Below, one piece after another: positions 44,076-45,413 of a stretch of DNA of 64,000 nucleotides (position 1 is the first letter of the stretch; every line of letters starts with the position of its first letter). The position numbers and the translations under genes are program-made. The notes beneath the pieces were generated by a model. The model was not told where the DNA came from. It searched no databases and worked only from the letters and a program-made list of their open reading frames with translations. The DNA is taken from assembly GCA_018970725.1 (NCBI GenBank), contig JAGWVU010000010.1:1-64000 (forward strand). Reading direction: 5' to 3'. The DNA comes from Verrucomicrobiota bacterium (GTDB lineage: Bacteria > Verrucomicrobiota > Verrucomicrobiia > Verrucomicrobiales > DEV007).

Positions 44076-44591
44076 TCAGCGGGAGAACATCGAGGCGACC
44101 ATTTGGCGCCCTTGTTGGGTCAACTCCACCTGGACCTTGCGGCGATCATACGGATCCCGAAGGCGGGCGATCAGCCCCTTGGCCTCCAAGGTATCGAGGA
44201 TGCCGCTCATGGCCGCGGCGGAGACCTGAAGCCTCCGTCCCAGACAGGCCGGCTGGCTGGCGGACGTCCTCAAGTGATGGAGCACCAGAACGGCACTGAC
44301 CGAAAACCGGCTGGGCACCTTGGTCAGATCCACCAGAATGGCCTCCCCGGCCCCGGATGGCTCCGCGTCCGTTTCCTCAGGCGCGGACGGAGCGTTCCCG
44401 GGGACCTTGGTCATCACGTCCGCCACGAGCTCGGACAAGATGGAGAAAATCTCTTCCTGGGACGTCCTCTCCGCGCCCAGCTGGCCGAAAATTTCGGCAA
44501 AGCGCGTCTGCACGTCCACAAAGCCACGATGGTTCACGTCCGGTCCGGGCACGATGGCGCCGACCGAACCCCGATTGTTTTTTGGGTTCAT
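44076..44591 (-). CDS. MarR-family transcriptional regulator
   Basis: A 171-residue regulator. The last 100 residues form the winged-helix MarR domain (SVSAVLVLHHLRTSASQPACLGRRLQVSA read in pieces, then GILDTLEAKGLIARLRDPYDRRKVQVELTQQG, split around its wing). The first 60 residues are a variable tail. ATG at 44591 was chosen as the start of the frame's similarity; frames upstream are open but not homologous. It faces the unknown gene at 44937 across 345 bp containing TGTACA palindromes, so it could bind there, but MarR dimers usually bind 16-20-bp sites. Confidence 0.85.
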   Translation of the reverse strand: MNPKNNRGSVGAIVPGPDVNHRGFVDVQTRFAEIFGQLGAERTSQEEIFSILSELVADVMTKVPGNAPSAPEETDAEPSGAGEAILVDLTKVPSRFSVSAVLVLHHLRTSASQPACLGRRLQVSAAAMSGILDTLEAKGLIARLRDPYDRRKVQVELTQQGRQMVASMFSR

Positions 44592-44936
44592 TCTGAATGC
44601 GATTCGGTTGTGCGAGGCAACTCCGCCTGAATTTGGCGAACCCGAGCGTTGTCCACCCCGCGTTTCGCGAATACTGCCGTACGATCTGACAACAAGCAAT
44701 TCCTTATTGAATGAAACTCTAAATGTTCAGGATCTGCTAAAGAAAATGGGCCGGCCCCTTTCGAGACCGGCCCAATCTGTCCGAATCGCACCAGGCTAAT
44801 CGGGTTCGCCGCTTTCATTGTACAATTCCTTGTCAAGTGCGCAACACTTTTTCTTTTGAATGTACATTTTTATCTCGATTCCCCCATTCCCTCCTTGAAT
44901 CTTCCATGTTCTTGTACAAAGTGGCCAGTTCGCATC
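44592..44936. promoter_or_regulatory. 345-bp divergent intergenic region with three TGTACA-core palindromes
   Basis: No gene is visible. Two perfect 10-bp palindromes, ATTGTACAAT (44817-44826) and AATGTACATT (44859-44868), and an 8-bp palindrome TTGTACAA (44912-44919) share the core TGTACA. Their centres are 42 and 52 bp apart, close to four and five turns of B-DNA. A 7-bp hairpin GGGCCGG/CCGGCCC (44748-44754 with 44767-44773) lies upstream. This looks like an operator array in front of the gene at 44937. Confidence 0.6.
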
Positions 44937-45413
44937 ATGGCCGCCGACCTCGATGAACTGGCCGGAATCATTGCCGCTCTTCCCCGAAAGCAGCAGCTGG
45001 ATCTGGTTGTCGCCATCCTCGGTCGCATCGCGCTCTCCATCGACTCCCTCCCCCAGCCGGCCAGAGGGCCGCAGGCGTTCACCGCTTCTTTTTCACTGCC
45101 TCCAAGGGATCGGCTGCTCGAGGGATTGGATTCCCTGACCGGACCCGACGCCGCACTGGTGGCGGCCCTCGCCCTCGTCTTGGAAACCTCCGAGCCGGAT
45201 GTACAATTCGATACCACCACCCTCAACAATTTCATCGGGAACGCGCGCTCCACCCCCTTGAACATCCAATCGCTCAACCCGCTGTGTGTGGATCATTACC
45301 TCCACGCCGTGCCGAGCACTCGGGCCACGAAAAGTTTCCGCTTCACCCCGCTGGGGTTGGAGAAGGCCAAACTCGTGGCCCGCGGTCTCTGGGAGGATGC
45401 CGCTCAACTGTAA
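44937..45413 (+). CDS. unknown protein, possibly DNA-binding
   Basis: A 158-residue acidic-to-neutral soluble protein with no recognised family. The first 70 residues form amphipathic helices rich in Leu/Ala; the last 40 ([19 protein letters not shown] in its final part) have the pattern of the third helix and wing of a winged-helix domain, seen in MarR/PadR-like proteins. ATG at 44937 is used; a TTG at 44856 lies inside the palindrome array. Expression is probably controlled by the TGTACA sites just upstream. It overlaps gcvP's end by 10 bp on the other strand. Confidence 0.6.

Follow-up and report, generated by a model that had tools for sequence, protein, structure and literature searches.

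In the usual divergent autoregulation of MarR-family proteins, the regulator gene is divergent from another gene and palindromes are found between the two. Another arrangement, which serves here as a lead only, is that of gcvA-gcvB of enterobacteria, in which a regulator gene is divergent from a small RNA. At the level of the DNA word itself, TGTACA is the operator core of the YefM-YoeB and Axe-Txe systems, where it lies over or next to the -10 element of the autoregulated promoter (PMC7730913, PMC4803016), and the long and short palindromes of YefM-YoeB are 12 bp apart from centre to centre (PMC7730913).

The locus described here belongs to a 64-kb stretch of DNA (64,000 nucleotides, hereafter the window) from a Verrucomicrobiota bacterium whose genome, 96.5% complete, comprises 4.9 Mb in 108 contigs. 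As in Phd/YefM operators, TGTACA-core palindromes are located at a candidate promoter. Nevertheless, the Phd/YefM arrangement consists of two palindromes at 12 bp, whereas three are present here at distances of 42 and 52-54 bp, along with intragenic copies; moreover, no antitoxin or toxin gene lies directly downstream and the gene found there has no Pfam match. Membership among the YefM-type operators was therefore rejected, since neither spacing nor gene content fits, and by analogy the locus would rather work like such an autoregulated operator without being one of them. The usual MarR arrangement differs as well, in that the palindromes are here at the neighbour's end and that a terminator and an RNA-like unit stand in between. 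In the same way, the locus resembles gcvA-gcvB in that a small-RNA-like unit adjoins a divergently oriented regulator gene, here next to glycine-cleavage genes as well, but the regulator is of another type, the RNA unit has no Rfam match at a meaningful score and only its position links the locus to glycine metabolism. A literature search on TTGTACAA as an operator returned titles that mostly concerned primers and vectors. The features of the locus are as follows.

44076 to 44591, minus strand: MarR-family regulator gene (marR), 171 aa
44598 to 44607, minus strand: B', CCGAATCGCA, the complement of B, shortly before the marR start codon and covering the ribosome-binding region
44635 to 44645, minus strand: A', TCGGGTTCGCC, the complement of A, located in the leader of marR, with an invariant core
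44739 to 44810, minus strand: predicted RNA, about 70 nt long with a start near 44810, either a free small RNA or the attenuated leader of marR
44747 to 44774, minus strand: intrinsic terminator whose 12-bp stem precedes TTTTCTTT; in the congeners both sides of one pair have changed
44781 to 44790, minus strand: RNA element B, TGCGATTCGG
44800 to 44810, minus strand: RNA element A, GGCGAACCCGA
44817 to 44826, no strand: box 1, ATTGTACAAT, core invariant in three species, overlapping the candidate leftward -10 (TACAAT, 44822-44817)
44839 to 44844, minus strand: candidate leftward -35, read by eye from the alignment, with TTGCGC here and TTGCCC and TTGCAC in the two congeners; the -10 follows at 16 nt
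44859 to 44868, no strand: box 2, AATGTACATT, with a distance of exactly 42 bp to box 1 in each of the three species, coinciding with or close to a candidate -10 of the rightward promoter (TACATT)
44912 to 44919, no strand: box 3, TTGTACAA, 52-54 bp from box 2 and 18 nt before the orphan start codon
44937 to 45413, plus strand: orphan gene, 158 aa, genus-restricted, product predicted to be winged-helix-like
45200 to 45205, no strand: fourth, intragenic TGTACA inside the orphan gene, with the same site in the congeneric genome G074

The initial annotation had reported three TGTACA-core palindromes with centres 42 and 52 bp apart and a fourth copy of the word inside the gene, and all of them were found as described, the box centres being at 44821.5, 44863.5 and 44915.5. 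Its interpretation was retained only in part, which does not include cooperative binding on one face of the helix. The distances of 42, 52 and 54 bp correspond to 4.0, 4.95 and 5.14 helical turns, and the 42 bp is invariant; on the other hand, the 52 bp drifts to 54 and the 42 bp would equally be imposed by back-to-back promoters that share their -35 region. About 6% of random distance pairs both fall within 1 bp of whole turns, and helical phase is the weakest part of the observation. One-face cooperativity is thus possible and not needed: with boxes 1 and 2 placed, as proposed, on the -10 regions of a promoter pair that has the intervening region in common, promoter geometry explains the fixed 42 bp at least as well as helical phasing.

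The three boxes are present at the same places in both congeners, with spacings of 42 and 52 bp (as in the window's genome) and of 42 and 54 bp, and they end 17-18 nt before the orphan start codon in these two genomes. Comparison of the three species showed conserved cores within flanks that are not, since 18 of 18 core columns are invariant against 31 of the 103 columns (30%) around the boxes, figures that come from three genomes of one genus and are inflated by their relatedness. In all three species the locus is laid out in the same order, from an EF-hand gene through marR, the boxes and the orphan gene to gcvP. Among 72 other genomes of the family, the TGTACA triple, the orphan gene and this MarR were all absent, and the boxes, the orphan gene and the neighbouring marR co-occur in every genome having either. 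The word is also found in the orphan coding sequence of all three species, against 0.001-0.008 copies expected per gene. These intragenic copies occupy two positions 63 bp apart, with the first used in the window, the second in G073 and both in G074 (relatives' sites L003:1637-1642 and L004:1631-1636 and 1694-1699), and they arise through the adjacent codons GTA CAA.

In the window alone, the number of TGTACA words is mildly unusual, with 5 copies for 1.77 expected and 5 of 100 shuffles reaching 5. A genome-wide count, which had been suggested as a check for enrichment and which rests on pattern counts, was more informative. Only 15 copies were found in 4,915,303 bases, against 268 for the reversed word, and five of these 15 lie within 1.2 kb at this locus (the three boxes, one copy in the orphan gene and one in gcvP). 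Of the remaining 10, nine fall within long open frames and the tenth within a stretch read as 16S rRNA; the three boxes are the only intergenic copies of the genome. In addition, TTGTACAA has two copies genome-wide, both at this locus, and a TGTACA pair with a gap of 24-54 bases occurs only at this locus in each of the three congeneric genomes. Given the background scarcity of the word, three copies in 100 bp are very improbable: the expected number of triples within 100 bp is 4e-7 at the genome's own TGTACA rate and 5e-4 at the dinucleotide-shuffle rate. The clustering is thus extreme, and the observation is real and far beyond chance. A genome-wide regulon was rejected for want of any further intergenic TGTACA, and the counts point to a private operator of one locus. 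This privacy, together with the invariant cores, strengthened the earlier proposal that the boxes are protein-binding sites, which is very probably the case.

The scarcity of the word follows from a general depletion of GTAC, which is strong in the window (14 copies for 81 expected). Other genera of the family, without the locus, also have few TGTACA copies, although to a variable extent, and the depletion is therefore a background property; GTAC depletion as an effect of this locus was rejected, as it is seen in many family genomes without it. Across 74 family genomes and G000, the TGTACA counts vary widely, the extremes being 0 copies in the 3.6 Mb of G017 and an absence of depletion in G020 and G027, a variability that may point to restriction-modification systems coming and going.

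The two genes that flank the array differ in what can be said of them. The marR product matched the MarR profile PF01047 (E 4.9e-10, 39.6 bits for a curated cut-off of 24.6), and its gene is divergent from the orphan gene across a 345-bp gap of which the boxes occupy the orphan end. The orphan gene codes for a protein, as judged from dN/dS values of 0.20, 0.23 and 0.32 that are indicative of purifying selection. Its orthologues, 73% and 65% identical to it, were found only in the two congeneric genomes, and a scan of 84,980 genomes returned the same two congeners only. No relatives were found in viral contigs and plasmids, 388 genomes of the phylum gave nothing beyond chance-level partial matches, and the matches in PHROGs were at chance level (E 0.14-0.17). 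Searches of Pfam, NCBIfam, PADLOC and PDB gave no sequence match and no described winged-helix family was matched: the orphan protein belongs to no described family. Its origin as a paralogue of the neighbouring MarR was rejected because the two have no profile similarity.

The winged-helix look that the initial annotation had seen in this product was nonetheless recovered in a low-confidence structure model, built with a distant relative (pLDDT 50.6), whose best fold matches were nearly all winged-helix regulators of the MarR, PadR, RosR and SarA types, with Z up to 7.6 and E no better than 0.05; no winged-helix match had an E-value below 0.001. An earlier model from three sequences was no better. 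A winged-helix fold is therefore plausible, as far as a weak model can suggest it. The distant relative, L058, comes from another genus of the family, has 155 aa, 28% identity and the same layout, and its E-value of 4e-5 derives from a profile comparison made after selection. It is divergent from an FRG-domain gene, and upstream of it (L058:1193-1291) TTTCTCTCAAA is present twice, 31 bp apart, together with an inverted copy, a sequence unlike the TGTACA boxes.

The best explanation for the whole, to which we give a probability of about 45%, is that a single, self-contained locus has the three palindromes as its operator. The boxes would be bound by a dimeric DNA-binding protein, for which the orphan winged-helix product is the likeliest candidate, and two back-to-back promoters would thereby be repressed. 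The rightward promoter would read into the orphan gene, with box 2 at or near its -10 and box 3 in the leader, while the leftward one would read into the RNA of about 70 nt, with box 1 over its -10. This RNA, ending at the conserved terminator, could base-pair with both the leader and the ribosome-binding region of marR and would thereby lower MarR synthesis. The promoters were read by eye: a leftward TTGCNC-16-TACA(A/C)T is present in the alignment of the three species, and a consensus scan for a standard sigma-70 promoter found none. That the boxes control the leftward as well as the rightward promoter is somewhat favoured. The assignment of the orphan protein as the binder is more tentative and falls a little short of even odds. 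It is preferred because its gene, rather than marR, is the one that the boxes adjoin, because further TGTACA copies lie inside its gene in all three species, and because the L058 relative also has upstream repeats, although of another sequence.

The RNA-like unit between the boxes and marR had escaped the initial annotation. It displays features of a base-pairing small RNA, namely an intrinsic terminator and a conserved complementarity to a target. B and B' can form 12, 13 and 15 contiguous pairs in the three species, and at most 0.03% of shuffles are as good. Their sequences differ between species and yet stay complementary, with two pairs changed on both sides; the predicted duplexes reach -20.9 to -25.9 kcal/mol within species, against -11.4 to -13.2 kcal/mol between the window's species and the other two. 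That B engages the marR start region in RNA-RNA pairing is slightly more probable than not. A and A' are invariant and consequently give no covariation, and A and B come in the same order in RNA and target, so that both duplexes cannot form one simple antiparallel helix. A role of TCGGGTTCGCC as a regulon site was rejected: the other copies examined, 28 in two genomes, are without exception within open frames of at least 127 codons on one strand, and the A/A' complementarity is therefore private to the locus. A single nested fold for the whole stretch was rejected as well, since, apart from the terminator and an outer stem that is invariant, every predicted stem is disrupted in one or more of the species. 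A search of the literature for a precedent of a small RNA acting on a MarR gene found nothing close.

Other proteins may nevertheless occupy the boxes. The initial annotation had named the MarR regulator and the orphan product as candidates, and the pair was left standing, since both have the same distribution (3 of 3 congeners and 0 of 72 other family genomes) and the binder is unassignable from distribution alone. MarR binding to the three boxes, with repression of the orphan gene and of the leftward RNA, would correspond to the usual layout of a MarR gene divergent from its target. The protein is a bona fide MarR winged helix, the array lies between the divergent genes and shares its distribution, and short near-perfect palindromes suit a dimer; yet the marR promoter region itself carries no box, while the boxes cluster at the orphan end of the gap and recur inside the orphan gene, which leaves MarR a somewhat unlikely binder, though a serious one and the orphan protein's chief competitor. 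Quite improbable is a regulator encoded elsewhere, for example a Phd/YefM-type antitoxin. The identical core in the YefM-YoeB and Axe-Txe operators (PMC7730913, PMC4803016) and the presence of PhdYefM genes in all three genomes speak for it, but the known paired palindromes are 12 bp apart instead of 42 and 52, the locus has no antitoxin gene, the two PhdYefM genes of this genome (on other contigs) have no TGTACA within 4 kb, and a distant regulator with a single intergenic target would be unusual. Finally, the boxes could be promoter -10 elements only (TACAAT/TACATT), without a separate binding protein, in keeping with TACAAT-like hexamers on both strands and with boxes 1 and 2 being where divergent -10s would be. 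Such a role is highly improbable, because a -10 would not require the whole TGTACA palindrome that all nine boxes keep, no suitable -35 goes with box 3 and further copies lie inside the gene.

The leftward unit may also be read in another way, as an attenuated 5' leader of marR that starts from box 1 and contains the terminator and a start-sequestering pseudoknot, in which A/A' and B/B' cross, instead of a free RNA. It is on the same strand as marR, and A, B, the terminator, A' and B' follow each other in this order and are all conserved. However, the terminator is strong and has a U-run, and it is followed by a conserved, promoter-like TTGC(T/G)TGTT..TCAG block that could be marR's own promoter; these suggest a separate marR start and give the leader a minor, although appreciable, probability.

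In its most complete form, the preferred reading, that of an operator over back-to-back promoters with the orphan protein as binder and an RNA acting on marR, would amount to a genus-specific three-part circuit. A new winged-helix repressor family would autoregulate through TGTACA and control a divergent small RNA that shuts off marR translation by pairing with its start region. All parts together are unlikely to hold in this precise form. If they do, a six-letter operator would be unique in its genome because the word is otherwise nearly absent, which suggests that a very short operator can be locus-specific when its word is depleted elsewhere in the genome. The individual ingredients are ordinary. 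For uncultured Verrucomicrobiales, the circuit would define a compact regulator-RNA-regulator module that includes a winged-helix-like family not described before.

On its other side, the orphan gene meets gcvP tail to tail, and the 3' ends of the two genes share 10 bp. For leftward transcription, the sole terminator seen is reached only after the orphan gene and the boxes, and gcvP transcripts may therefore run antisense through both.
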